Source of the DNA: Spirometra erinaceieuropaei
Taxonomy: Eukaryota; Platyhelminthes; Cestoda; Diphyllobothriidea; Diphyllobothriidae
Direction: 5' to 3'
DNA length: 64,000 nucleotides
NCBI GenBank assembly: GCA_902702965.1
Contig: CACRXP010000396.1
Coordinates: 103,193 to 167,192 of the forward strand
Shown: piece by piece, positions 4,293 through 56,975 of the stretch
How the letters are laid out: each line of letters starts with the position of its first letter
Position numbering within the stretch: the stretch's first letter is position 1
Made by a program: the position numbers and the translations under genes
The notes under the pieces: model-generated
Seen by the model: only the letters and a program-made list of their open reading frames with translations
Database searches by the model: none
What the model was told of the DNA's origin: nothing

Positions 4293-4545
4293 GCCAAGGG
4301 CTCGTTGTCCTGTCGGTAGCGATCGGGAATATACAGTGGCAGAGCGCCCCTTAGCCCGATTGCAACCGACAGGACGACGAGGCCGTGGCCCAGTGGTTAG
4401 GGGTGCAGGACTTCTAATCAACAGGGCTCGGGATCGAGCTCCAGGTGTTCCACGCCTCGGGGTTAGATATGACTGGCTGACGACGACTTCTAAGTCCAGG
4501 AATGGGAATACAGCGTTAGGTCGACGACTCAGTGCACTTTCCTCA
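4293..4545 (+). mobile_element. SINE-B (tRNA-derived) copy, degenerate hammerhead region
   Basis: The tRNA-like head is at about 4381-4445: a box A word TGGCCCAGTGG, an anticodon-loop-like GGACTTCTAA and a degenerate box B. It is followed by the conserved TCGGGGTTAGATATGACTGG phrase. The hammerhead-like part (4471-4515) keeps CTGACGA and a 4-bp stem II (GACT/AGTC), but the GAAA box reads GGAA. An inverted head fragment (4300-4345) precedes it. The GGACTTCTAA loop resembles tRNA-Arg(UCU), so that parent is a guess. Confidence 0.7.
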
Positions 4546-9600: not shown

Positions 9601-12600
9601 CTTCCGTACCCGCTCAAGGGCGTGCGGGAATAGTTTTTTCGATGCCAGGCGGTAAAAACACCCTGTGACGTCAGTAGAAGGGCGCTCTCCAATCGTTCTT
9701 ACAGAATTCACTCGTTCGGTTGTGCCTTGAAGCTCTCTCTCGAGCCCAACCAACGACCGCACGGCGGCGCGTAATATAGGCAGAATGTTATTACCGACAA
9801 AGACAAGGTTGATTAGAATGGCCACTTCTGGCTTATTAGCTGTCGTCAGCAGTCAGCACCCTTCCTATAGTTGTATATACCCGATCGCAATAGACAGGAC
9901 AGCGAGCCCGTGTCTCAGTGGTTAGGGACGTCAGACTTTTAACCAGCCTATATCATGCGCCGCTGTCCGGCTGCTCATTTGGCTCAAGAGAGAGCCCGTA
10001 AGTCCCAACGGAACGAGGCGTTGCACTTCTAACCAACAGGTCGCGACTTCGAGCCCCAGGTGTTCCACACTTCGGGGTTCGGTGTGGCTGGCTGATGACG
10101 ACTAATAAGCCAGAAATGGCCATTCCAGTCTCCCTTGTCTTTGTCGATAATGCCATTCTGTCGTAAAGGGACGCTCACCAATCGTTTATACGAAACACCT
10201 TGTATCTTACGGGCTCTCTCTTGCGCCCAACCAGCAGCCGCACAGCGGCGCATGATATATAGGCAGAATGTTATTACCGACAAAGATAAGAGAGGCTGGA
10301 ATGGCCATTTCTGGCCTACTGGCCGTCGTCAGCCAGTCATACCCAACCTCGAAGTGTGGAACACCCGAGGCTCGAACTCGTGATTTGTTAGTTAGAAATT
10401 CGACGCCTCTAACCCATGAGCCGTGGGCTGACGATGGTTTACAAGTCAGAAATGGTCATTCGAGTCTCCCTTGTCTTCGTCAGTAATGCCATTCTGCCTA
10501 AGAGGGGGTGTTTAGCGCCTTGGTGTTGATAGCTATTTTCTGCTCTACTTATCTCGGTGCATCAGTTATCGGCATATATATCCTTTGCGGGTGCGGCTGG
10601 CTGACGACGGCCAATAAGTCGGAAATGGTCATTCCAGTCTCCCTTGCCTTTGTCGAAAGTGACAATCTCAGCAACTGGCTACCAGCAAAGCATTCGCTGC
10701 ATATATTACTCCTCGATTCAGCAGGCGTTGTCTGCGTTCGTCGCGGTGTGGTCTGATAGGCGATTTTCTCTTCACGACTATGTAATGTAACTCCGGTGAT
10801 CGGTATGCATCCATTCCCAGTCTGCCCTGGCACGAGCTGATTCACCCGTGATTTTTGAAATCATTGTCCGTCTGAATCTGGACCGTCCTCCATCTCTCAT
10901 TGCTCCTCGCGAGGACCCCATACATGTCTGTAGGACCAGGCGGTGTGTGGCACGCGTAGACTGGCCACCTAGCGCTACCAGCCGCTGTGCCTCATCTCGC
11001 CCCCGGTTTTCCTGACTCAGTCCTGACACCGAGCTCAAGTGGGTGAGGGAGAGGAGGGTGCGCTAGATGCTGCTCAGGTTCACTATCACCATCAACTAAT
11101 TCGCGCGCAAGTCACCGTCCCTGCGCCTACCATGCTTTGGAGCACACGGTGGGCACCAATGTTCGCGATAGTCGAACTGTTATGTCTGTGTCTGGTCGTA
11201 TCTGTTGGTCAGCGTGGTGTGCCCTGCCAGACCCAGTCATCCTGTCGGTAGATGATCTCTCAGCCGCCAACTTTTTGAATTGTGGTAGTCTAAATGCGTA
11301 TTGGATATCTTGTAACCCAAGGTTTGTGAGCGTCTGCTATGCCACAATCAGCCAACCACGGCCCTCGAAGCCTGGTATGCTCTAGCACTTCTCCGATACC
11401 TGGTTCTCTGGCGGTAGATGCGCTTGCGCACCCGCTGGGCATACAGGTCGTGTGCATGGATGCCCAGTCGTCCACTTCTTATCTGTTGTTGTTGTTGTTG
11501 TTTTCGGTCAAAATCCAAGCCAGGTGTTTGCCGTTAATCAGGAGGTGCGGAGTTGAACGCCAAGGTGCGTGTTCGGCCGCGCCCTCCCCGCCTCCGGTCT
11601 TCTTTGCTGTGTCTTGACACCGAGTCGAGGTGAGGAGGGGAGACGGTGCGGTAGATGCTGCGCAAGCCACGCGCAAGTCACCGTGCCTGTTTCACCCTAC
11701 TGTGGAGCAGCACATGGTGGGCATTGTCGGATGCGACGTTCGAACTAGCGAGATCTATTATAGGAATAGAAGTAGGGGCCCGATCGGCGTGAAGCAGGTT
11801 TCTCTGTCTCACCATCTAGCCTTCCTCCTGTGATGTGTTTATTAACAAATCCGGGCCAAGTCGACTGGAGGTGGTGGGATGTGTCTATCTGCCTATCGGC
11901 CTAAAACAGTGTTGTTTGGCCTCACTCTAAGCAAAAAAAAACAACAGCGCCCTATCCTTCTATGACGGTAACGTGGTGACTACCTGTGCTCCTCTCACTC
12001 CAATCTTACGGAGGTTTACTTGGTTGCATCCTTCTGCAACTCCAACTCCGCTCAAGGGCGTAGGGTAGGCTTTTTCAACGCCGGTTTACAGCATTCGTAA
12101 AAACTTCCCTGTGACGATTACAGCGCCTGAAGTGCCATTGAAGTATCCGCCCTCCGGTTTCACTGGGAATGACTACCCGCATTGAACGACTTCTAATGAC
12201 GTCTACAGTGAGTGCTTTAAAACAGGCCTCAACGTACAGTAGGTGGGCTAACTCATGAAATGTCAACCGAAATGCGTTTTCCTTTCGAAACGATTAATTA
12301 AGTAGCGTTGTGAAACCAATCATCGTGCAACATAATGGTATCACAATTCAGTTACCTCAGGATGCCGGCTTTCGAAGGAACTTATTTCTGCATGCAACAG
12401 CTGCACTCTGTAAAAAATGACTACTTATGTAGCATGCACTTTTCTCATTAATGTTCGATGTCCCTAAAAGTCGATTTATATTTTATGGAAAACATGCATA
12501 TGCATATTCATTGTTTGCTCAGTAGGCAGGAAATCACTTTTTCCTCCAATTCTATACTCGAAAGAAGGGTACGATTTGGTTTTTAAAAAAGTTTCTAATT

Positions 12601-15600: not shown

Positions 15601-18600
15601 CCTTGCCGGTTAACGGTCGCCTTTTCACTGCTGCTCACTCCTGCACGCTGCCACATAATCCAGTAATCTACGAACTCCAACTCTGAGTCTGGAGACTTTA
15701 ACCCTCTCCGAGGACTGGACCTCGAGTGATCAACGAAGCAAATACCAGTTACTTGTGCACTTTAGAGCTTGAGTTGAATTCTTTGTTCATGCGCGCTTAC
15801 TGGTGGCATCCTTAATGGGCGGGTAACCTAACCCAAATGTGATTAAACTCGCGTCGTCCGGCAGGGCCTCGTAGCTCAGGTGGTTAGAGCGTTGCCTGTA
15901 CTAAAGCCTCCCCCTTACTGTGTGGGTTCGAATCCCACCGAGGCGCCGAGTTTTTCACAGTTGGGTCAATCTGAATTATTCAAAAATCTGCCAAAACATC
16001 CTTAATGTGACAACAATTCACACGTTTTGGGAATTCGTGAGAAGTTTCACTAGTTGTCGAACTCAACAGCCGAGGCAGGCGCATTTTCGCTTATATCTAG
16101 GCGTGGCATTTTTAAGACCTATTCGCCGATAATTTACATTTTTTTAAAAATGAAAGCCCTGTTTCGACTAGAGCTAAGTGGATATCTCAAAAGTAGTGCA
16201 AAGTCAGGTATCATGCATCTGGTATTTCGTCGTAAACAACGCGGTGCACCACAATCGCTAAGACGTACTGGTGCCTTTTAAAGATTCTACTCTGTATTCG
16301 CATACGTCGTCTTCCGATGATACGACAACATCCGGTCCGGTCAGTCTTTTCGTGACTCGTAGTCATTTCTCGCGCATCCTAGTCTATGACAGGAAATTTT
16401 GTACGAACTATTCCTCCGTACTGCTGACTTTCGAAGCGTCTACCGGCCCCACCCGAAGTAAACAAACCCCAACCACCTGTAATACCGAACCGGTGGTAAT
16501 GGGGCTTTTATAGGTTGGGTCGGGCAACGCGCAGGTGACGAGGCCAAGTAATTGTATGCAAAAGAAAAGCTATTGGGAACGCGCGGTGGTACTTTGAGTG
16601 GTTGAGAAATAATTGCCCTAACCATGAACCCTAATACCAACCTCAACAGTATTGTGTCCATCAGGTGGGGCTATATAGCCACCTCGTACCCCTCTACCTC
16701 ACTCTGCGTTCGCATACATCGTCTTCCGATGATACGACAGCATCCGGTCTGGTCAGTCCTTTCGTGACTCACAGTCATTTTTTGCGTACAAACAAGCACT
16801 TCCTCCGTTTTTTCAACATTAACCACACGCTTCCTGCAGATAGAATTGTCAAGGTAACCAGCATAGATCCAGGTCATGGTCCTTTCTCGGCCGTTACACC
16901 TATTCAACCAGGTTTTCTGGGAACTCTTAATGGTCGGACCGGGTTTGTTGAACCGTAGCGCTTTCCAAAAGGAACGGTTCGGGGTCTGGAGAGTATCACT
17001 TACTGTGAGAGCCCCTTGCTTTCGCCGAGACCGAAGACCACTCGTACCAACTCAAGATTTGCTAGTGAATCAGCAGACCCTCAGCTGGGAAATGCGCAAC
17101 TTTGGAGCAGTTATTGTCTCAACGGCACTCAGTTAGTCTGTTTAACTCGCCGTACATTGACCCCAGACATCACTAGCCCTCAATCATAGGAGGGGGCGTG
17201 GGTATTCGCCGACCTATCCTGATTTGAGCCCAAAAATAAGCATTTTAGTCCTATTTTGGCGGACAATAAATGACCATAACACATTACTGCCAAAAGTGGG
17301 AGGGCGACTGGAATGGCTGTTTCAGACTTACTTGCAGTCACCCGCCAGTCGTACTCCATGACCCGGCCTCCCGTCTGGCTGACCGACTATGCTTTGCCTT
17401 TTGACTGCGATGTTTACCACAGTCATATTTTCGATTCCTTCTGTTCCTGTTTGCACTCGTTCTGTCACCAACGATTAAGGTCACTTCCTGGTCTGGCCTC
17501 AAATCAACAACCCTGGTTGAGTTTTCTGTTTTTTGACCTTCCAGCAGGTGAAAACACAAAAAAACAAGTCGTATTTCTCACCTTTACTGCCACGTCGGTT
17601 TTTTCCATACACCCTGCTAAGCGGCGCATGATATAGGCAGTATGTGCCGCTGTGCGACTGACGGTTGGGCTCGAGAGAGAGCCCGTGAGGCACAACGGAA
17701 CGCGCGAGTTCCTTGAGAACGATCGGTAAGCGCCCCCCTACCAGTGTATATTCCCGATCGAAACCGACAGGACAACGGGCTCGTGGGGCGTGGTCCTCTA
17801 ACAAACAGGTCGCGAGTTCGAGTCTCGGGTGTTCAACACTTCGGGGTTGGGTATGACTGGCTGACGACGATTACTAACCTAGAAATGACCGTTCCAGTCT
17901 CCCTTGTCTTTGTCGGTAATAGCATACTGCCTATATCATGCGACGCTGTGCGGCAGCTGGTTGGGCTCGAGAGAGAGCCCGTAAAGCACAACAGAACGAG
18001 TGAGTTCCGTAAAAACGATCGGTGAGCGTCCCCACCATCATATTATGACACGTGATGCATATACGAACATAAGCTGGCTGTGGGACGAGGCGACGAATTT
18101 TCGGAGGTGGCTGTCCGCACCTCTGAAATGAGTCATGAGTTTAACTTTGCAATCACCGGGATAATCGTGTACTTCGGAAACAAAACAGGCCGAGAAGTGA
18201 TTGAAGCCTGGGCTTCGGATTAGAACTCAATGAATTTGTCGATTCGGTGCCTGCGTACAGAGCCCTGTGCGATTGTCTAGTACGCCTTATAATTGTCGCT
18301 TGTTCTGTTGTTGCTGCTATCTCTGACGATAGATTCCCGCACTAGTTCTAAAGCTCAGAGCAATAAACGGACTTTCCCGGTGCACGACCAGTCTTCTTTT
18401 TCTTCTTCTTCACACCTGGAACTCTAACTTTCGCCTCCATTCGGTGTGTCTTGTGTCTGACGCTTGCCAAGTGGCGCCTTAACGGCAACCAGCCTCACGC
18501 TCTTGTTCCCTGTTTTTTTTCCCCAAACTAGGAGCGCGAACTGGGCGATGACTACGGTTGGAAGCAGGTGCACGGAGATGTCTTCCGCCCACCCGTCGGC

Positions 18601-21600: not shown

Positions 21601-24599
21601 TAGTGCCAAGAAGCGTTCCTTGGCTGGAATTACAGTGTGCGTGACCGACCTCACGAAATGTTGGCCGAAATTCTGAATTGCACTTTCGACTAGGAAGGAT
21701 TAACAAGGTGGCGTTGTAAGAGTAATTATTATGCGGCATAATCCTGTAGTATTTCGGACTCATCAGGATGTCCGCAAAAATGACTACTTAAGTAGCATGC
21801 ATTGTGCACATTGATTTTGGATGGTCTCATAAATTCAAATATATTTTATAGAAAAGATATGCAAAAATATGCTTTTTACCCGTTTGGTAGAAAACACATT
21901 GTCTTCACATTTTATACCCGGAAAAAGTGTATATTTAGGATTTGAAAAACTTTCCCAATTCCCGAATAATTTTGAGCCCGATCAGCCGTTGCATTTGCGC
22001 TTAGCGATTTCAGTCTACAAGTTGCATGACTTCCGCGTAAGGAAAATCATATGTTCCTCTATGCCTTTATAAGGATACTGTATAGAGTTCATAACATTTT
22101 GCAATGGATACAGGATGTATTGTACACTTCACGAGGAACATTGATAAAAGAACACGTACGATGCTGTATATATGGACATCGCACGATCTTAAAAACCTCA
22201 TAATTAGGAACTTTTTAAAACCAAAAGATAACCTTTTTGGGGTATAAAATATAAAGACAATGTGGTTTTCTACCAAACGTGTAAAAGAAAGCATATTTTG
22301 CATATGTTTTCTATAAAATATATTTGAATTTGTATGACCATCCAAAATCAGTATGCAAAATGCATGCTACTTAAGTAGTCATTTTTTGCCGGGTGTGGTT
22401 TCCGCGGAAAGTCAGAAAGAAGTGCATTCAAAAGCGGACATCCTGGTGAGTCCGAAATACTACAGGATTATGCCACATGGTAATTAATCTTGCAATGCCA
22501 CCTTATTAATCCTTCCTAGTTGAAAACGCATTTCAGAATTTTGGCCAACATTTCATGAGATTGGTAGCGCACTGTATAAGGCACGGTTGGCCAGTAAAAC
22601 ATGTGTCCATGGCAAGATCTAATCGCCGACACCCGGAATTCAGGTTGGGGCACACCCACCTTTCGTGGGAATAATTCACGCTCCCTTTTAGTGACTCAGG
22701 AAGGGAGCCTGCTTTTTTCTGTTTAGCATCTATTTTGTTGGAACCGCAGTGCAACATGCCTTGTTTGCAAAAGCTCTGCTGATATTTGCTTGTCAATTGT
22801 GTTGAACACTTATTGTAGTCTGTGGTGGAACACGCAACGCGAGTTTGGGTTCAGCAACTCGAGTCAAATGCATTCTGTTTGAATTACTCTTATATTTCCG
22901 CGGCCCCTCGTGTTGTGAGAAATGTCATCGTAGGAAGAGCGCTCATTGACTAGGCTACGGAGCATGCTCGCACCGCTGCACCGTGGGGCTCAGTCCGGAG
23001 TTCTCACCGGCAGTCACGTACCGACCAGTCATGTTGGCAGGATAGACAACTGACAAGGTCAGGCGATGTCGGGATGGGCATTTCCGGCTTATCGACCGTC
23101 ATCAGCCGTTCATACCCAACCGCATGTCTGTGTGATTTAGGATTCCAATCCGATGTTCTTTGGTTATGGAGCGTTTTTAACTACACTGCTCTACCATCGA
23201 GCAACGGGCCCGTGGTCCTGTCGGTTGTGATCGGGAAGTATATTACCGTAGAAAGAGCGTTTACTGCTTAGGTTTCGGGACGTACCCGTCCTATTGTGTT
23301 CGAGGGCCTAGTCCAGAGTTTTCGCAAGCAGTCGCACATCGACCAGTAATGCAAACAGGGATCCTACTGACTGGACAAGTCAAACTACTTCATCGCAGTA
23401 TCAAGTCATTGTGGATTTTTTACACCGGAAAAACCGTGCCCAGCGCACAGGTGGTCCTTTAATGTCCCATTGTCGTTCCCGAGTTTCGCGAAGCTCTTCA
23501 GTCAAACAAGTAGTGCTAGCACTTTACATTGCAAGACAAGAGAGATTATGTTGGCAGAATGGCATTACCGACAAATGTCCGTGATAACATACTGCCTATA
23601 TCATGCGCCGCTGTGCGGCTGCTGGTTGGGCTCAAGAGAGAGCCCGTGAGGCACAACGGAACGCGCGAGTTCCGTGAGAACGATCGGTGAACGCCCCCAC
23701 CATTGTATATTCCCGATCGAAACCGACAGGGCAACGGGCTCGTGACCCAGTGGTTAGAGTCGTGGACTTCTAACTAACAGGTCGCGAGTTCGAGCCTCGG
23801 GTGTTCCACACTTCGGGGTTGGGTATGACTGGCTGACTACGGCTAATAAGCCAGAAACGGCCATTCCAGTCTCTCTTGTCTTTGTCAGTAATAACATACT
23901 GCCTATATCATGCGCCGCTGTGCGGCTGCTGGTTGAGCTCGCGAGACCGCCCGTAAGGCACAACAGAACGAGTGAGTTCCGTAAGAACGATTGGTGAGCG
24001 TCCCCTACCACCAACAATTTCTAAATTGGAGTATCTACCAAAAGGCAGACAGGGAATGCTGGGGGACCTACTGACGAGCCGAACCCTTCACAGCTGTGCC
24101 ATGCAGCGGCAGAATATCCGGCAAAACACGCGTGTATGGTCTTTTGGCTGCTACCTGTGATGTTAGTACGAAAATTACCTTACCCTAGGGGTTTAGTTTT
24201 CGGCCACTACCTTGGCTAGTCGCTGTATGTGTACCCCTCAGCATTCAGAAGGCGCGACTTTTCCAGTGATGACCAAAACGCCAGCAGAAGTTGCTGGAAA
24301 GCCTACTCGCTACTCCGACTGCTTTTTTTCTGACTCCCACGGCATCGCCTAACGTTGTCTGTTTGCGCATCCCCTTAGGTACTTCATCTTCACCTCCTTC
24401 TGGGCCTACAAGATCTACTTTGTGTTTGGCTTCACCCTGCTTGTCATCCTCATCCTGATTGCGGTGACCAGCTGTGTGAGCGTTGTCTGCTCCTACTTCC
24501 TTCTGAACGGCGAGGACTACCGGTGGTGAGCTGCTCTGCTACTTTGTTTGCCCTTGACCTCTTCACTGATTGGCGCCTCTGCGTGTTCCAGTGTGTGCT

Positions 24600-27600: not shown

Positions 27601-30600
27601 GAAAGTAAACATCTGAGTGGACAGGTAGACTATAGTTTTTTAAAAAAACCTTCAAATGCCAAATGTGGCCTTTTTCGATGCCTCCGGGGAGTACTGTGGT
27701 TTTGTCTGGCCGACTATATCTCCAACTTCCGAGACAGTGAAGAGTCGCCACCTCATGTACTTTGGCAATGCACTTTGTCAGCCCAAGAGCGAACCCGATC
27801 AGACCTTCAGCCGTAAATTTCTGCTGCCAGCACGATCGTAGTGGAGACCAATTGAAAAGATTGACAAGCTGAATGAAGTCCAACCGAAGGAGGATTCCGC
27901 CTCCGAGATCCTTCGATGTCCAGAAAGTGGCCGTCAATCGCTCAGGCACTTCTGGTCGCAGATCTTGTGCCACACTGCTTCCCGTTGTCTGAGGGTAGCG
28001 TCCTTTGAGCCAGTTTTAACGACTGTCAAGGAGACATCACCCGCGTTCCATTCATCTGCCGTAGTGAGAGAAGATACATTACCGTGGATATACGTACTCA
28101 GCTTTGTTGTCAACCCTAGAAGTGTATCGGTAAGATCTTATTTCGTAGCCGCAACCGTAGGGCGTTAGGGTCAGGGATTAGCGTTAGAGGGGTCATGGTT
28201 CACGGAACCTCAGTCTATCAACAAGTGCAACGACATTCCCACTCCATATTCCGTGCTGAGGCATAGGCTGGCCAAACTAATTGACCACTCGGAGAGCGCG
28301 CAAGCCGGTGAGCCAGATGGCCGAGCCATCATCACGCCAGCATCCAGCACGGGTGACGAGATTTCAGCAATTAACAACTTTCATGCCAGCCATCAAGCAA
28401 TTAGCGCACCAGCGGGCAACAATCCTTGATGAAGGAGAGCGCGGTTAATTGCTATAGGTATGCGGTAGCATAGCGACCGCAACTTCCTGTGCACGAGTCA
28501 CCCTTTTCTGCCACTGTCCCTGATGATGGGTTGAAGTGAGAATTCGAAAAGTCAGGCGAATATGGCCCTTGTTCCAGCGATCGCTTCTTCTTCTGATTTA
28601 GGGGTTGGTGTTAAACTCCCTATTATCACCAGTCCCGTATGGCAGGCGCGACTGCGAAATAAAATCCGACCGCAGTGTATCGAAGTCGGCTTTTATCACC
28701 ATACACCGGGACATATTTGGTTTGTACTGGAAACCCCTCCAATCGCTACTTGAGTAGTACATAATGTACATATGAACAATATTTCCGTTTTTTGAAATTT
28801 CCTTCCTAGTAGATGCCGATGTCCCTCTTGCTAGTAAGGCATGCTGGCTGTTTCAGGAGACATATTCATCAGGTCTTTTATACTTCGGAGATGCCTTCAT
28901 TCCAAGTGAATGGCGAATCTTAAAAACAGGCAAAATCTTCCATCTGTCGCAGAAAAAGGCGTTATTTTCTTTCAGAAGAAAAGGTGGCGAGCAAACATTG
29001 TTTTGATAATTTCTCTTTAGGTCGGTACAGTTATATGGGAGCGAGATACGGTAATTGAAAAAATCGGTAAAAGTTAGTTCTTAAAATGAAGGCTATCAAG
29101 AGCGGAAGGGCGCAGAAAGTTGCTTGTTGTTAGTCAACCTTTGACCACGGTAAGCGCGGAGTCTGAACGGGGTTATTCTGGACGCATAGGGTCGGTTTTC
29201 GTAGCTTGATGGCGGTCGCTTCTGCTGTCGCTAACAGGCGCTGCCCCAGTAGCTTAGGGCACCTCGAGGGGACTTTATAAATCACACGAAATGCTTCAGC
29301 GGGGTCCACACGATGCCCTAAATCCTCTGCATGCGCAAGGATGGCGCTGTCTATTCTCCTATTTTCACCTTTGCCAGCCATGCGAGAAGGCGCTCTCGTA
29401 TTCTTTTGGAAGGGCGCCGAGTCGTACGACCAATATAACCTGCTCCACAGGAGCAAGTGAATGAGTAGATGCGCATTGAGACGGTCTGAGGTGGCAGCCT
29501 ATCCTTGCCTTCTCCGCGTAAAATGGGGTTAGTAGAGAATAATATGCGAGCCCTTGCTGCTGGGAAAGTTCCCGAAATAGCTTGGTGAAGGCGTCTTCTT
29601 AGGAGTTCACTCGCAGCGTCTCCTTGGAAAGGGACTTTGAGGAAAAACGTTTTCTTTTCGGCGGTCAGTGTGGTTGGTTTTGCGGGTCGTTCGGCAAGGT
29701 TCTTTACAATTAACCTGTCAGGATACCGGTTTTCGCGAAACAAATCCTGGATTTTTCTAAATTCCTTCTCGATACTATCTGTTGAACAGATATTTTTTCC
29801 AGTCCTTTGTGCCAAACACCTGACTAGATTTCGTTTTTGTTGGAGAGGTACGAAAAATTAGCATGGGAAACGAAATGTTGTCATTTGCCATCTGAAGCAA
29901 TCATTGTATTTTAGCCTCCAACATTAATTCACACCGACGCCGTTTTCCGTGTCATATTGCCTGATCCTTGACCTTTCAAGTCTCTCCTTATTACCTCCTC
30001 CTCCTCCTAGGCAATGGGTCAGTTTCTGCTCGGGCGCGTCCACTGCCGTCTACATCTACCTCTATTCCATCTACTACTTCATTTTCAAGACCAGGTAGGA
30101 GCCTTTTTTGTGCCCGAAACTTCCTTTAGCTTTTCACGCCGGTGCCCTCCAGTTGACTCTGCACCACCCACGGAAGGGCATTGGTTGTCATCATATGACC
30201 TTGAGCATTCTTAACCATCCAATGTTTTTAAGCAGGAAATTGCTCTCTCCCTCGCCGGCTGTCGGGATTTCCAACCAGAGCGAGCACACCATTGTTCCCA
30301 AGCCTACGTAAACCCCGTTGCTCTGCTTGGTCTCGAAAGTAGATGTCAGCATCTAACTCTCTATGATACCCTGACGGCGGCGGCGAATGCCGAGACCTTG
30401 AGGGATGGCGAGGAGCGTTTACGTATGACCTGTGGCTTATATATGTAGCATGTTCGCTTGATTAGTGTTTAGCCACGCCTGCAAGTATTACAGCCACAGA
30501 GTTCATGATTACTCATTGATCGGACTCGAGAGCCTGCTTGTTTCGCTACTGGCCTTCATTGAAGGCTATTTCCCTATCCGCCGCTTGTGGATGCATGGAG

Positions 30601-33600
30601 TAGCTTGCAGCTGGGCTATCAAACTAGCCGCGTCCCATTATTGCTGGCCTAAAAGGCATTAAATAATTAATAGGGGTGTTGGCAGATTTTGATCTAACTG
30701 TGAAAAACTTGACAACCTTACTGTCGTTGGTTCGAATCTGGCTGATGGCGTTGAGTTTTTCACAGTTGGGTCGAAATGAATTATTCAAAATCTGGGCAAC
30801 GATGGGGAGTAGAACCCCCAACTAACTTCAGCTAGCCTAAAGACCGTGTTATGCGTTTAATGCTGGTAGCGGGGATTTTACAGGACGTAGAGCATAAAGA
30901 CACAGAAAATGGATAAATTTCTGCCGAAAGTCTTATCGCACGCTGTCATTTGGCAAAGAAACTGAGCGCGGTAATTAAAAAACAAACAAAAACCGGTTTT
31001 CAAAAATAACGCCGCTAGCAAATTTACATTTAGTCAGGAAGGGAAGGAAATTTCAAACAATGGGAATGGTAAGTGATGTTTACAGTCGCACTGAATTTTA
31101 GAGTATATTTCTGGAGTTGTCATTTACTTGCGGTCCTATACCCTATCGTTGCCAAAATCCGCCACAACACCTATTAATTAGGTGAGCCTGGTAGTCTTCT
31201 GGTTAGTCGCTTAAGAAATCCTGGTGGATTTCATATGTTGCAGTAGACTGGGTGAGTAACTTCACCCAAATGTGATTAAACGTACGGCTTCCGGTGGGGC
31301 CTTGTAACTCAGGTGATTAGAGCATTAACTGTGCTCAAGCCTCCCCCTTGCTGTCGTAGATTCAAATCCCGCCGAAATGGCCAAGTATTTCAGATTGGGG
31401 GTCAAAATGAATTACAGATTTAGCAGCCAGAGCGAGAGAGAGTTTTGTTGATAGAAGCGAACAGGCGAGTTCCAGGTAGCAGTTCAGAATACGACGATGC
31501 GATCACTGGAACAAGAAATTTATTGGTCTGACGTTTTGGATTCTCACTCGAATCCATCATCAGTGCGCATACGGTCCCACGGCAGCCACATGCTATAAAT
31601 ACTACACGCCTTGTGTCACCATCACCTTTATCTGCGAATGTCTCTGATGATGGATTCGAGTGAGAATCCGAAACGTCAGGCAAATAAATTTCTTGTTCCA
31701 GTGATCGCATCTTCGTCTTCTAGAGAATTTTGTTTCGATCGAAATTAGCGAAGTAGGTGGCCTGCATTCCTTGCTACTCAGGCATTCCCTGGCGTGATTG
31801 CGTTTTACACCTCAAGTTCGGGCAGGGAAACGGCCTCCACGACTGACGCGAGCGAGGTGAACCAGGTAATTTAGATTTTTGTCTGACATAGTCATCGACG
31901 TATTATGTCCAAGCAATTAATGTTGTTCGCGCGGAAGACACTCGTGGCGGGTCTGGCAGAGGGTTTGGTTTGCATGGTTATGCTGGTGACTATGGTCTTC
32001 AACAATTCTCCGGTGCATCCGCAACTTAAAAGAGACGTTTATAGATTAGATGCTAGTACAGAATGCGTTCTTGACACTTTTCTTTGAACTGCCAATTTAG
32101 AACCCTCTCGGCTGGCCGCACGATAAATACCGTTAATGTCGAGATAATTAAATAGTCATTTCTTGCCTATTAGCCGTTTCCAGCCCACCATATTTCAACT
32201 TTGAGTTTCCATCATCCCTCGAGGAAGAGTGGGGGGGCAGAGGATGAGTTCATGAACTGAGCTTTACCGACGTCTCAGATACGTTCCCGTTTCCGCCCTT
32301 TCATGGTGCTGTGGTGACTCATCCTGTTAGCCTTGGCTTATTCAGCCTCGTATTACAACGGTGTTCGGCGCGCGCACTTTGACCTGCCAATGTGTTGCTG
32401 ATTGTCTGTCAACTATCTGTAACCGACCTCTGGAAGGCTCGCGTGAATTTTACCCCCCCCCCCCGCTCATCACCCGACCGATTAATTTGTCACTGTGGCT
32501 CGTGCAAATTGCTCTGGACTTCTTGGGCGCCTCGGTGAGCAGGTATTGCGTGCTGGTCACATCTTTTAAGAAAGCTAAGGTCATCCACCGAGCCAATGCG
32601 AGGACGGCCAGACTGGCGGCACACTTGATCGAGCCGCGCGCACCCGCATCCCGCCTATCAGGCGCTGCACGTGAGGCACGAATTACTTCGAACAGGCAAA
32701 CAAAGTCATGCAGGGCTAACAGCTCGCGACCAGTGTGGAACATCGGCGCTACCCAAAAAAACGAAAGCATTTCGCGCGAACGGCGACGACTAATCAGCGC
32801 GCCACCTGTAACGGGCCGGGCCGACCGGCTCATTTTCGCAGATTCGGTGACCAGACTGGACTTTTCTGATCCGTATATGGTCATCACACACCCGTAGCGC
32901 AACTTCAGCCCGAGGTTGCGTGCGTTTGGAGCCTGGGTTAATAACTGTGGGTCAATGCTCTGGCACGGTTCATTTATCTCTTCCAACTATACTCTAAACG
33001 GGCCTATCTTGCTTCATCAAATCAAAATGATAATTTAAAAAACCCGACAGGGAGTTCATCACTAGTGTGACCAGACTTTGTAATTCTCATTGACCTCCTT
33101 ATGATTCACAGGCAGATCGCTAAGAGTGCAACAGGCCAGACGCAGACAGCTGTTTCACGGTCGTTACCGATCATCAGTGCGTCATAGGTCTTATGGAGTC
33201 ACACGCCTACTTGAAATGTTTATGTACCTCATTTCCCAAGGCCAATGACGTACTGATGATCGGTAGCGACCGTGAAACAGCTGTCTGCGTCTGGCCTGTT
33301 GCAATCTTAGCGAGCTGCTCATGTATTATATATGGTATGTGTCTCATGGTACAACGTTCGTTGCCGCCAGTACGAAGCTGGCGTATCGAGTGAGATCCTA
33401 ACCACAACAGCGAGGGGTCACTCTCCGTATGATTCTCAAGTGCTCCTCGTTCGACTGTTTAGCCTAACCCCCGCCCCAGCAGCAACTAGCACAATGGGTT
33501 GTTTTATGAACCCTAGGTCTTGTAAACACAGACCACGCCGGCTGGAGAGTCAACTTTCTCAACTCCCAGCGTGGCTCGTTGCTTTGCAAGGTTATATTGC

Positions 33601-38255: not shown

Positions 38256-38705
38256 GATGGAGGGGTGATGCCCAACAGCTGTCGGACTGTCGAATGATGC
38301 CGAGCTCAAGCATGTGTTCGAACTCTGCCTTGACAATCTTTAAATAGCCCGGAGCAAGACGACGCCGTCGGTAAGATTTGGGAGGTCCAGTGGTAGAGAT
38401 GTGGTTGGCGATCGAGTGTTTGATGTCCACTTCTCAAAATGACGGGGTGGACTGCTTGAGGAGTGAGGGGAAAGGACCCTCAGAGATGGGCATAACGGTA
38501 AGTGGTTGAGGCACGTATTCACTTCAAAATGGCAGCGGGCACGAAGATTCGAGAGGCTGTCGGCCAGTCGGCGATCTCTCAAATCGACTAGCAGGTCGGA
38601 GTTAGTTGGAAAATCAGCTCCTATGAGGGCGGCAAAAATGTCGGCGAAAAACATGTCAAAGGGCCAGTCCAAATATGGGAATACGGGAATTGCGGAGAAG
38701 TGAAG
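38256..38705 (-). pseudogene. gypsy protease end and reverse transcriptase start, frameshifted
   Basis: One frame gives FFADIFAALIGADFPTNSDL and LLVDLRDRRLADSL, the protease flap region. A second frame, shifted near 38430, gives DIKHSIANHISTTGPP, then RRRRLAPGYLKIVKAEFEHM and LELGIIRQSDSCWASPLHP, the standard gypsy reverse transcriptase entry. The LINE fragment interrupts it at about 38255. Confidence 0.82.
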
Positions 38706-39240
38706 GAGGAGATACGATCGCTGGAACAAGTGCTTTTTTAGCCTGACCTTTCAGATTCTCACTCGAGTCCACCATCAAATACAAAGACAGATAAGGGTAT
38801 TGAATTACCCAGGTGCTGCAATATTTATAGGATGCAGTCGCGTGAGTCGCTAACTACTCGATTCATGGTTTTCCGGTCCTTATTCAATCAACAGGCGCAA
38901 CGACCTCCCCACTCCATATTCGACGCTGAGACTTAGCCTAGGCAAAGAAGTTAGCCGCGATGAGGGCGTGAGGATAAGCACTGTCCCCGGTATCAATATC
39001 GGCGAGCCAAACCACCCAAGAGTCCACACGAATGACGAACCCCGGTAGTCAGCCACTCAGCGGCGTACGGTGAGCGTGGGATCCGATAATCTTGACGGAC
39101 ATACAGACGAATAGCAACTGAATGGCAACGGCATACTTCAACACCTGGCCAGTCGGACTGTGATGTACTCGGGAACTGCCACTTTTGAGAGGCATGTAGC
39201 GGCCTAGAAACTACATCCCATAAATACTGGAATTGTTAGC
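38706..39240 (+). mobile_element. Penelope-like family 1 insertion in the gypsy protease
   Basis: Left: inverted terminal repeat (TCGCTGGAACAAGTGC, 38718) with a decayed - strand hammerhead at about 38747-38785. Then a + strand coding fragment 38854-39048: LLDSWFSGPYSINRRNDLPT to a stop. Right: a CATAAATACTGGAATTG scrap of the other terminal repeat. It separates the gypsy protease DSGA region from its flap region. Confidence 0.75.
38854..39048 (+). pseudogene. Penelope-like family 1, C-terminal fragment
   Basis: The frame gives DSWFSGPYSINRRNDLPTPY and runs to TAG at 39046-39048. It aligns with 28193-28429 and with the ORF at 43929-44522 on the stretch SWFSGP..IN..ND. Everything upstream is missing. 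Confidence 0.72.
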
Positions 39241-41737: not shown

Positions 41738-41810
41738 GGTTCCGTGGTGTAGTGGTTATCACGTCTGCCTAACACGCAGAAGGTCCCCAGTTCGAAACTG
41801 GGCGGAGCCA
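41738..41810 (+). tRNA. tRNA-Val(AAC)
   Basis: 73 bases. The acceptor stem GGTTCCG pairs with CGGAGCC (one T-G pair), followed by discriminator A. D arm box A TGGTGTAGTGG, anticodon AAC at 41771-41773 in loop CTAACAC, T arm CCCAGTTCGAAACTGGG with a perfect 5-bp stem. The sequence follows the eukaryotic tRNA-Val pattern (GTAGTGGTTATCACGT). CCA is not encoded, apart from a chance CC after the discriminator. No long T run follows within 10 bases, though TTACTTTTG is at 41820. Confidence 0.95.
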
Positions 41811-43629: not shown

Positions 43630-44710
43630 GAAGATGAAGATGCGACCACTGGAACAAGAAATTTATTGGCCTGACCTTTCGGATTCTAACTCGAATCCAT
43701 CATGAGAGACAGTCGCAGATAAAGGTGCTGGTGGCACAAGGAGTGCAGTATTTATAACACGTGACAGCCGTGGGACCATATGCGATACTGTAATTAACAG
43801 CTCTCTCAATCATCGCTGGGGTCGTAATTGATGCGGTAGTGGCTTGTCAGTCCGAGTCGTTAATAGCCGTGATTTCTTCATCCGTGCTGTATGCAGGTGT
43901 GACGATTCCTCGGCAAATTGGCTCACTGTCACTGTGATAATTGCTTGCCCGCGCCCTCCCCACGTGACTGATTCCTCTGCCCAGGGAAAATCTCAGAACG
44001 GAATATGGTAAAGGGGAGGTCATTGTGCTTGTTGATGAATTGCGGGCCTGAGAACCATGACTCGAGCATCTCGCGGCTCACGCGGTTGTCACCCCTTGCG
44101 AGGATTTCAGCCTCTTGAAATTTGAAAATATGACTGGGTCCCGTCGAGTGTGCCACCACCTGAGAGCTAGCGTCTTCATGCCTCATTGCTGCTGCGTGCT
44201 CGGCAATTCGCGTACGGAGTAATCTCCCAGTTTCTCCGACATGATTGCTTTGTCTGCAAATACACCTGATTCGGTAAACGACTCCAGACGTTTCCTGCCG
44301 TGGCAGTAGGTCTTTGGGTGTCATGACTTGGCGTCTGATGGTTGCTTCCGGCTTGTGTGCAACCCTAACTCCAAGTAGAGTGAGAAGACGATTGACGGCT
44401 TCCGTGACGTTCCTCACGTGCGCAAGCTCCCGCCAAATTTTGGGGCCGGTTGGATTTGGCCTCTGGTGTCGTTTTCGTATGTACTGGTTGACGAAGTTGC
44501 GCGGGTAACCATTGTCTCTCATTACCCGTCGAAGATATTATAATTCAGCAACCTTGTCTACCATTGCACTGCAGTGCGTCTTAACGCGCCGGTATAGCGC
44601 CCTTATGCAACCGCGTTTGAGAATCCGAAACGTCAGGCCAGTAAATTTCTTGTTCCAGTGCTCGCATCTTCACCTTCTCAGCTACTACCTGGAACTCGCC
44701 TGTTCGCTTC
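43630..44710 (-). mobile_element. Penelope-like element family 1, 5'-truncated, with inverted ends
   Basis: Coding strand is -. The left flank (43630-43790) is a terminal repeat in the coding orientation with a hammerhead remnant (core CTCATGA, GAAA present) at about 43660-43705. The right flank (44617-44710) is the same repeat inverted: GAATCCGAAACGTCAGGCC and TTTCTTGTTCCAGTG.TCGC. The ORF sits between them. The inverted upstream repeat matches the layout at 38.7 kb and 31.5 kb. Confidence 0.8.
43929..44522 (-). CDS. Penelope-like C-terminal region with GIY-YIG endonuclease
   Basis: 197 codons, uninterrupted. Residues 1-75 are the tail of the reverse transcriptase thumb (FVNQYIRKRHQRPNP). 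From about residue 80 the GIY-YIG fold starts: SGVVYRIRCICRQSNHVGET, GRLLRTRIAEHAAAMRHED, then HIFKFQEAEILARGDN and REMLESWFSGPQFINKHND. The Y..I.C.C....VGET....R..EH spacing is that of Penelope-type nucleases, with the catalytic Arg and Glu of the R..EH and E.W boxes visible. The reverse transcriptase fingers and palm are missing, so it cannot be autonomous. The open frame suggests a fairly recent insertion. Confidence 0.82.
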   Translation of the reverse strand: MRDNGYPRNFVNQYIRKRHQRPNPTGPKIWRELAHVRNVTEAVNRLLTLLGVRVAHKPEATIRRQVMTPKDLLPRQETSGVVYRIRCICRQSNHVGETGRLLRTRIAEHAAAMRHEDASSQVVAHSTGPSHIFKFQEAEILARGDNRVSREMLESWFSGPQFINKHNDLPFTIFRSEIFPGQRNQSRGEGAGKQLSQ

Positions 44711-45807: not shown

Positions 45808-45880
45808 GGTTCCGTGGTGTAGTGGTTATCACGTCTGCCTAACACGCAGAAGGTCCCCAGTTCGAAACTGGGCGGAGCCA
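45808..45880 (+). tRNA. tRNA-Val(AAC), second copy
   Basis: Identical over all 73 bases to 41738-41810, anticodon AAC at 45841-45843. Seven bases upstream (GAGCGTG..) are also shared. The copies are 4070 bp apart. Confidence 0.95.
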
Positions 45881-51679: not shown

Positions 51680-51975
51680 GCTTGATTCAGTTGAAATGGC
51701 ATTATTGACAAAGACAAGGGAGACTGAAATGGCCATTTCTGGCTTATTAGCTGTCCTCTGCCAGTCATACCCAACTCCGAAGCTTGGAACACCCTAGGCT
51801 CGAACTCGCGACCTGTTAGTTTTATGTCTACGTCTCTAACCACTGGGCCACGAGTCCTTTGCCCTGTTGGTTTCGATCAGGTGAACCCACCGCTGACACC
51901 CCTACACCCCATCAGCAATATACAATGGTAGGGGCGCTCACCGATCCTTCTTACGGAATTCACTCGTTCCTTGAT
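51680..51975 (-). mobile_element. SINE-B, - strand copy
   Basis: The - strand tRNA-like part is at 51785-51870 and the hammerhead region at 51722-51766. Core reads CAGAGGA in place of CTGACGA; GAAA, stem III and stem I are kept. The opposite end is CTTACGGAATTCACTCGTTC. Confidence 0.7.
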
Positions 51976-52425
51976 TCAGTTATCTCAACTCGAGACAACT
52001 ACTCGCATGTCTCCATTCTCATCAACATTCCTCCCTGCATCTAACATTCGAACAAGTGGAATTGCAGGGAAGACCCTAAACACGATGAGTAGGCGCAGGC
52101 TTAAGTTGCATAAAGAGGCATTCATTTTTGAGATGCAGACGCTGGTGGTCTTCCAGGCTTGTGACAGAAACTGCATGCATTTGCGTTGCAATGCTCCTCC
52201 GCGTGTTCGTTTGTGCTAGTTCGTTGCGGGTGGTCGATTGTCATCAAACTGAACGGGAGTTCGCCCCCAAAGACTTTAAATTGCATGCCTTCTGGCAATA
52301 ACAATGAGTCCATGGTTTCGCCCTCCGCAGTTTTAACAAGGGTGGGATAGCGCCCTACGCTCCAAATAGACTGTCCTAATAAACCAACCGACAGCTCATC
52401 CAATTCGGTTCTCCAGTTCCATCAC

Positions 52426-56559: not shown

Positions 56560-56975
56560 ATCACTACAAAGGTGAGGGGGGGGCATTCACAATCGTGTTA
56601 CGAAACTCGCTCCTCTCGAGCCCAACCAGTAGCCGAACAGCGGTGCTTAGTATATGCAGAGTAGCATTGCCGACAAAAACAAGGGACACTGGAATGCCAT
56701 TTCTGGCTTGCGAGGCGTCGTCAGCCAGTCATACCTTGGTTAGAATTTCAAGGCCTCTAACCACTGAGCCACGGACTCTTTTTCTTGTTGCTCGCGATCG
56801 AAAATATACATCGAGTCCATGGCTCAGTGGTTAGAGGCGTTGGACTTCTAACTAACAGGTCGCGAGTTCGAGCCTCGGGTTTTCCACATTTCGAAGTTGA
56901 GTTTGGCTGACTGACGACGGCTTATAAGTCAGAAGTGGCCATTCCAGTCTCTCTTGTCCTTGTTGGTGATGCTAC
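56560..56975. mobile_element. SINE-B head-to-head pair
   Basis: A - strand unit (56580-56790) and a + strand unit (56810-56970) meet at their tRNA-like heads: CCACTGAGCCACGGACTC (56760) against GAGTCCATGGCTCAGTGG (56814). Confidence 0.78.
56687..56730 (-). ncRNA. hammerhead ribozyme-like motif in SINE-B
   Basis: - strand: stem I GACTGG with CCAGTG (five pairs), CTGACGA (56724-56718), stem II GCCT/AGCC with one C-C mismatch and loop CGCA, GAAA (56703-56700), stem III ATGG/CAT with three pairs, cleavage U opposite 56693. Both core boxes are intact. Confidence 0.5.

Follow-up and report, generated by a model that had tools for sequence, protein, structure and literature searches.

A tapeworm SINE family with a probable, mostly damaged descendant of a minimal hammerhead ribozyme in its body

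We analyzed a window of 64,000 nucleotides (nt) from Spirometra erinaceieuropaei (assembly GCA_902702965.1, contig CACRXP010000396.1, positions 103,193 to 167,192). All coordinates below refer to this window, and the strand is given as (+) or (-). The window contains copies of a short interspersed element (SINE) family named SINE-B, remnants of Penelope-like elements (PLEs), an inverted-repeat element near 33 kb, and tRNA genes. An earlier note on this DNA had described SINE-B as a tRNA-derived family carrying a type I hammerhead ribozyme at 10086-10130 (+). The repeat family is real: iterated nhmmer searches detected 15 copies of the body module on both strands (final round, 15; preceding two rounds, 16). 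The SINE-B unit is approximately 307 nt long and consists of a tRNA-like head, a body, and a tail. We labeled its modules H (tRNA-like head), B, C (core motif), and X (tail). A single unit is strongly folded (z -4.5; 0 of 100 shuffles were equally good).

The hammerhead-like motif comprises 45 nt with the consensus GACTGG-CTGACGA-C-GGCT-AATA-AGCC-A-GAA-ATGGCCAT-T-CCAGTC. All parts of a type I hammerhead are in place except for the stem II junction pair 10.1-11.1, which is C.A. According to PMC3088659, this is the most conserved hammerhead pair after A15.1-U16.1. The self-complementary stem III described before is indeed palindromic (ATGGCCAT) but loopless: a 4-bp hairpin is impossible in one molecule, and full pairing can be achieved solely between two RNAs or tandem copies. 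Weak stems III are described as very common among hammerheads, and many of them are palindromic, allowing dimers (PMC3088659).

The copy at 10086-10130 (c10015p) reads GGCTGG / CTGATGA / CGACTAATAAGCCA / GAA / ATGGCCAT / T / CCAGTC. Most of the parts ascribed to it were recovered (CTGAYGA, GAAA, U16.1-U17, and a stem I with one G.U), and its core is complete (11/11), but stem II has the C.A at 10.1-11.1. The perfect 4-bp stem II, GGCT/AGCC, belongs to other copies; here the helix is GACT/AGCC with an internal A.C mismatch. The best-preserved motif is located at 10595-10639 (+), where no tRNA-like head is present upstream. It has a 6-bp stem I (one G.U), a core of 11/11, stem III AUGGUCAU, and the cleavage site AUU. 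Its 4-bp stem II contains C-G at 10.1-11.1 and one G.U. If G.U is counted, all stems of this copy are paired throughout.

Complete cores were also found at 10294-10338 (-) (C.A at 10.1-11.1, stem II GGCC/GGCC), at 10422-10466 (+) (U-A at 10.1-11.1, stem II of 5 bp, stem I broken in register), at 17855-17899 (+) (stem II broken), and in a divergent body module at 23049-23115 (-) (72% to the consensus, C-G at 10.1-11.1). Core positions are changed at 23827-23871 (+) (G8 to T), 51722-51766 (-) (U4 to A), and 56905-56949 (+) (A15.1 to G). Body modules are additionally present at 9782-9850 (-), which is headless and faces the (+) copy starting near 9871, and at 56658-56734 (-), the inverted partner of the copy at 56823-56975. 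Altogether, the core (CUGANGA, GAA, A15.1, and U16.1) is complete in 7 of the 15 copies, including copies that are 72%, 75%, and 83% like the consensus; the other eight retain 7-10 of the 11 positions. Position H17 is T or C in all 15 copies, and stem I pairs in 75.6% of cells. The 10.1-11.1 pair is formed in four copies (CG, 2; UA, 1; UG, 1); these are 4 of 9 headless or divergent copies and 0 of the 6 headed copies compared. Older copies may thus have kept an ancestral pair at this position, but single transitions from C.A also yield C-G or U-A.

Next, conservation was compared between column classes, with the core columns set by hammerhead numbering rather than by the alignment. In the 15 copies, the 11 core columns had a mean consensus frequency of 0.903, compared with approximately 0.79 in stems I and II (permutation p 0.0006; 0.0005 in another run). 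When the four most divergent copies were dropped, the difference increased to 0.967 versus 0.81-0.82 (11 copies, p 5e-5). The free position N7 remained at background (0.67 with 15 copies and 0.73 with 11 copies). The corresponding values were 0.78 and 0.84 for the 3' flank, 0.83 and 0.91 for inner stem III, and 0.67 and 0.70 for the 5' flank.

A descriptor was then applied to the window (loopless palindrome, stem I of at least 4 bp, stem II of at least 4 bp, free size of the stem II loop, mismatch allowed at 10.1-11.1). It matched four sites, 10595-10639 (+), 10296-10336 (-), 33247-33291 (+), and 33139-33183 (-), which represent two families with no detectable relation. The motif at 10086-10130 does not match the descriptor, whereas its siblings at 10595-10639 and 10296-10336 do. 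When one strand of order-1 Markov sequence was simulated (3,240 Mb in total), a single match was obtained, corresponding to approximately 4e-5 for both strands of a 64-kb window. This is a crude and optimistic estimate, as the descriptor was written after the motif had been seen and the rate comes from one simulated match. Without the palindrome requirement, with stem I of at least 6 bp and stem II of at least 4 bp, the simulated rate was 0.003 per 64 kb.

We also used two independent models, R1 (built from 20 phage hammerheads) and R2 (25 phage hammerheads that differ in N7 and stem II), neither of which contains a SINE-B sequence; their E-values are approximate, and copies belonging to a single family cannot be treated as independent. 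With R1, the ranking in the window was 33139-33183 (-) (E 1.5e-5), 33247-33291 (E 1.2e-4), the PLE motif at 31638-31683 (E 0.063), and 10086-10130 (E 0.18). With R2, the 33-kb pair again ranked first and second (33139-33183 (-), E 5.5e-6; 33247-33291 (+), E 1.6e-4), followed by the SINE-B motifs at 10595-10639 (14.7 bits, E 0.027) and 10086-10130 (13.6 bits, E 0.064). Six of the ten best R2 matches in the window are SINE-B copies, including 17855, where the match is limited to the core and stem I, and 56905, matched in a shifted register alone (56905-56930). The PLE motif at 31638-31683 ranked eighth (E 0.99). The best score in control contigs (79.8 kb; six loci from a viral hammerhead pattern meant for forms with a 3-bp stem II) was 12.0 bits, compared with 14.7 bits for the best SINE-B motif. 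The last of the five viral patterns used yielded no qualifying hammerhead sequence with a 3-bp stem II.

Rfam was searched with short pieces for 2 of the 15 SINE-B copies. The 81-base piece 10580-10660, chosen after the descriptor scan, matched Hammerhead_HH9 with 21.0 bits and E 0.0018, but this is far below the gathering score of 52. HH9 was the sole listed match to this piece among 4,227 Rfam families; the tool omitted a further match that overlapped it and came from the same clan.

The arrangement of the copies was analyzed in the same window. Three copies cross a common head-to-tail junction, ACCA|(T/G)TGTATATT. The longest, at 23576-24010 (+), spans 1.41 units (tail, junction, head, body, and tail of a 307-nt unit). 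The copy at 17642-18038 (+) spans 1.33 units with the same junction, and the copy at 51694-51969 (-) comprises less than one unit (tail end, junction, approximately 35 extra bases, head, and an end in the body). The latter is flanked by the arms of a 13-bp target-site duplication (TSD), 51681-51693 and 51970-51982, with one mismatch. It was the only clear TSD among 11 scanned loci (10 SINE-B loci and the 33-kb pair); no convincing TSD was found at the other 10 loci, two of which have weak repeats of 7-10 bp and eight none. SINE-B copies start and end at permuted points of the unit. TRF detected no long tandem array of SINE-B in the window, the copies reaching at most 1.41 units. Runs of four T residues (T4) are absent from four of six SINE-B stretches checked, including the two longest copies; the remaining two have one T4 each.

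The earlier note had also described an RNA polymerase III (pol III)-type head. Box A and box B are present in some copies, but the description mixed features of different copies. Properly spaced boxes were found in two SINE-B copies, at 51797-51850 (-) and 56820-56874 (+). In the first, box A TGGCCCAGTGG (51840-51850) is followed by box B GAGTTCGAGCC at 51797-51807; in the second, which is the head of the copy at 56823-56975, box A TGGCTCAGTGG (56820-56830) is followed by box B GAGTTCGAGCC at 56864-56874. The other two spaced pairs in the window are accounted for by tRNA-Val genes. At 23743-23796 (+), a box A-like TGACCCAGTGG (23743-23753), one position off the consensus, precedes box B GAGTTCGAGCC (23786-23796). 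Two sites in the window, 4386-4396 (+) and 51840-51850 (-), carry the exact box A TGGCCCAGTGG. The exact box B GAGTTCGAGCC is found four times, in copies other than the one that contains the motif at 10086-10130. In the latter, box A is missing from the expected register, and box B is altered to GACTTCGAGCC (10045-10055).

The core columns are selectively conserved while N7 is free, independent models match the motif in register, and the one family listed by Rfam for the best copy belongs to the hammerheads. We therefore favor, with a probability of roughly 60%, the reading that SINE-B is a nonautonomous SINE resembling retrozymes, whose body contains a minimal type I hammerhead of the dimer type, inherited from a once active ribozyme but damaged in most copies of the window. 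The recurrence of the 45-nt geometry in the unrelated 33-kb motif, the junction-crossing copies, the 13-bp TSD, and the strong folding of the unit were also counted in its favor. Judged from the sequence, the motif looks real at the family level and partly decayed in most copies of the window, with present cleavage as a candidate activity. The interpretation proposed earlier is thus partly supported: some copies have a head with box A and box B, and the body motif behaves as a hammerhead descendant, but the copy that had been pointed at is damaged, its stem III as described is impossible in a single molecule, and covariation is lacking.

Several observations weigh against the favored reading. 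First, 11 of the 15 copies have no standard pair at 10.1-11.1. Second, the R1 and R2 scores of SINE-B are singly marginal, with a best E of 0.027. Third, Rfam found no hammerhead window-wide at the gathering threshold or at E<=10, none in 9700-10700, and no hammerhead match in the 81-base piece 10072-10152, which contains the copy at 10086-10130. Fourth, neither ARAGORN nor Rfam recognized a cloverleaf in any SINE-B head. Fifth, no covariation was detected in the hammerhead stems: the score was below the shuffle mean, and 434 of 500 shuffles were as high. This check, which was half of what the earlier note had named as able to refute it, was based on 15 copies of one window rather than on a genome-wide alignment. 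Sixth, the hammerhead fold is energetically unfavorable. For the 10086 copy, the monomer hammerhead has +0.6 kcal/mol versus -12.1 kcal/mol for the minimum free energy (MFE) structure, and the dimer has -19.5 versus -33.5; the 10595 copy has -5.0 versus -14.5 kcal/mol as a monomer and -22.4 versus -31.4 as a dimer. Finally, catalytic mutants of an Anolis PLE ribozyme inserted normally in vitro, making the hammerhead dispensable for insertion in the experiments described in PMC11167929.

The negative Rfam results of the window weigh little because the gathering threshold misses canonical phage hammerheads. In the positive control, searches at the gathering threshold found hammerheads in 0 of 7 loci carrying canonical phage hammerheads. 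Two of three phage type I hammerheads (viral loci L004, L014, and L028) reached 28.4-28.5 bits with RF00163, for which the gathering score is 34; the third gave weaker hammerhead-type matches only, none listed under RF00163. Rfam was thus rejected as a deciding test for being too blunt.

The strongest competitor is a chance resemblance, in which the SINE-B body would simply fold into hairpins usual for SINEs (CTGGCT/AGCCAG, or GCCA-GAAA-TGGC, whose loop is of the GNRA type), the hammerhead pattern being read into the sequence. RNAalifold indeed picks the CTGGCT/AGCCAG hairpin (its four inner pairs of six), which pairs in 85.6% of cells compared with 74.9% for the hammerhead pairs in the 15 copies. 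Furthermore, none of the MFE structures of seven folded SINE-B copies is a hammerhead, and the missing covariation fits this explanation as well. However, the covariation of the rival hairpin is also not significant (120 of 500 shuffles), and that of the GNRA hairpin with stem I is lower than in shuffles. The columns specific to the rival hairpin show no special conservation (p 0.35 and 0.60), whereas the core columns outside it are still significantly conserved (p 0.008 with 15 copies, 0.0014 with 11 copies). The in-register matches of R1 and R2 and the Rfam hammerhead match of the best copy also speak against this explanation. We therefore consider chance resemblance unlikely.

Still less probable is a fully working hammerhead in a lineage that is still spreading, with the C.A at 10.1-11.1 tolerated in the dimer or with the help of protein: the six headed copies compared (c10015p, c10264m, c17785p, c23757p, c51693m, and c56834p) all have C.A together with a core of 10 or 11/11, U.U at this position occurs in natural hammerheads (PMC3088659), and a PLE hammerhead was described as cleaving only with protein present (PMC11167929), but the hammerhead dimers of C.A copies are considerably less stable than the best fold, and C.A is expected to be worse than U.U because U.U supports more cleavage than any other mispair at this position (PMC3088659). 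The descent of SINE-B from a working ribozyme, with later damage, instead predicts weak or no cleavage by the copies with the common C.A.

If SINE-B is such a retrozyme-like SINE, its amplification can be envisaged as follows. The tRNA-like head would provide an internal pol III promoter, as suggested by box A and box B. Transcripts could run into further units, the two longest copies being without an internal T4 terminator. The palindrome ATGGCCAT would pair two tandem or separate copies, each of which would cut at AUU|CCAGUC. Cleavage would release 307-nt monomers, which may circularize. Multimers or circles would then be reverse transcribed, most likely by co-resident PLEs. A 307-nt unit is too short for an open reading frame with its own reverse transcriptase (RT) or GIY-YIG domain, and SINE-B itself is not a PLE. 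New insertions made in this way would span the head-to-tail junction and have permuted ends. The specific proposal that a tRNA-headed SINE is copied by PLEs, with multimeric pol III transcripts being cut by a dimer-only, minimal PLE-like hammerhead and re-inserted from multimeric or circular RNA, is tentative, and we give it a clearly lower probability than the hammerhead descent as such. SINEs usually use long interspersed elements (LINEs). If PLE copying is true, SINEs would parasitize a PLE, the shared ribozyme being the link.

The 5' ends of the copies were inspected separately. Six of 13 SINE-B 5' ends lie within 15 nt (unit positions 224-238), on the upstream border of the hammerhead motif (p 0.002 versus uniform); the 13 ends were hand-picked from 20 mapped pieces (seven were dropped as joined to a neighbor or short), and all 20 give p 0.02. 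The cluster was thus weakened on re-check, and similarity loss in old copies could mimic it. Copies of the PLE family and the 33-kb family likewise begin near the upstream edge of their motif, and such an end is not of a kind that type I cleavage makes.

Head-to-head inverted junctions are common to the SINE-B, PLE, and 33-kb families in the window. For SINE-B, they are located at 9852/9871, 10420/10425, 17638/17639, 23575/23576 (where the inverted piece is weak, E 0.07), and 56768/56823; for the PLE family at 31563/31644 and near 44619; and for the 33-kb family at 33192/33238.

The SMalpha element of Schistosoma mansoni carries a tRNA-like pol III promoter, and its hammerhead has extended peripheral contacts. 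SMalpha (W36.2_W001, 335 bp) is described in PMC8490949 as SINE-like with an active type I hammerhead; it resembles SINE-B in being a SINE-like flatworm element of similar unit size with a hammerhead of this type. In contrast to the proven activity of SMalpha (PMC8490949), SINE-B has a 45-nt minimal motif with a loopless, palindromic stem III and usually C.A at 10.1-11.1, the two being compared by description. The minimal type I hammerheads of PLEs also lack a proper stem III and share the dimer architecture and the partial tandems (PMC7761336, PMC11167929). SINE-B is set apart from PLE hammerhead elements by its tRNA-like head and by a unit that could not accommodate an RT; it also lacks the additional U preceding stem II and differs in sequence from the PLE motif of the window. 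The non-LTR (long terminal repeat) retrozymes of animals resemble it in their 170-400-nt units, type I hammerheads, tandem copies, strongly self-paired RNA, and coexistence with PLEs (PMC7229834). Unlike retrozymes, SINE-B has a tRNA-like head and forms no long tandem array in the window, and its circles are presumed.

The suggestion that SINE-B is a further, undescribed hammerhead-bearing element is plausible, but elements of this kind are known: SMalpha (PMC8490949), minimal dimeric PLE hammerheads (PMC7761336), and retrozymes (PMC7229834) are already described. Among the literature matches listed, with subscription papers outside the search, none describes a hammerhead in a tapeworm SINE. 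If confirmed, our reading would extend hammerhead-bearing SINE-like elements to tapeworms. The mobilizing machinery of animal retrozymes is presented as an open question in PMC7229834, with PLEs as a suggested candidate. With a hammerhead SINE, hammerhead PLEs, and a third hammerhead family that share their junction habits within 64 kb, this question becomes directly testable. Genome-wide, PMC8166898 gives 36,816 SINEs for Sparganum proliferum and 35,223 for S. erinaceieuropaei, and nearly 200,000 PLE copies in each. A protein-level search of tapeworm proteomes for SINE copies gave no candidate, and DNA scans of viral and of prokaryote contigs with the SINE core gave 0 matches each, as expected for a tapeworm element.

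The third family is represented by an inverted-repeat element at 33100-33330, with 93-nt arms that are 88% complementary and 45 nt apart and one minimal hammerhead per strand. The motif at 33247-33291 (+) is unrelated to SINE-B but has the same 45-nt geometry, with U.U at 10.1-11.1, the palindrome ACAGCUGU, and a GUC cleavage site; its inverted partner is located at 33139-33183 (-). The dimer hammerheads are close to the best folds (-31.7 versus -33.7 kcal/mol for (-), -27.7 versus -29.3 kcal/mol for (+)). Therefore, judging by predicted dimer energies, the 33-kb motif is likely a functional minimal hammerhead, that of SINE-B being weaker, and the 33-kb inverted-repeat motif is the better ribozyme candidate. 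An Rfam search with the pair (211 bases) listed no hammerhead; it gave miRNA-precursor matches, which we take to follow from the inverted repeat, and one weak riboswitch-type match.

The PLE-type motif, CTGATGA-T-GGATTC..GAATCC-GAAACGTC, has six clear copies, several of which adjoin PLE coding remnants. The copy at 31638-31683 (+) has an extra U before stem II, the palindrome ACGU, and a GUC site. Sites of this family, which has the extra U between A9 and stem II, are 31486-31721, 43630-43710, 38702-38780, 28517-28594, and 44614-44677. The motif copy at 43630-43710 (-) accompanies a PLE remnant at 43655-44618 (-), whose nearest proteins are from Sparganum/Spirometra and whose GIY-YIG domain is below the Pfam cutoff. 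Proteins of Sparganum proliferum and Spirometra are the best matches to the PLE reading frame at 43929-44537 (-) (top identity 78%; 88 proteins with E<=0.001), which places the window in a diphyllobothriid tapeworm. For an Anolis PLE, partial tandems, hammerheads in the pLTRs, and protein-assisted cleavage are described in PMC11167929.

Finally, the window contains two tRNA-Val(AAC) genes with equal scores on one strand, approximately 4 kb apart (41738-41810 and 45808-45880). A tRNA-like gene at 15865-15946, called by ARAGORN as tRNA-Ser with the anticodon ACT, has a weaker Rfam score (37.3 bits) and possibly bears an intron or is a pseudogene.

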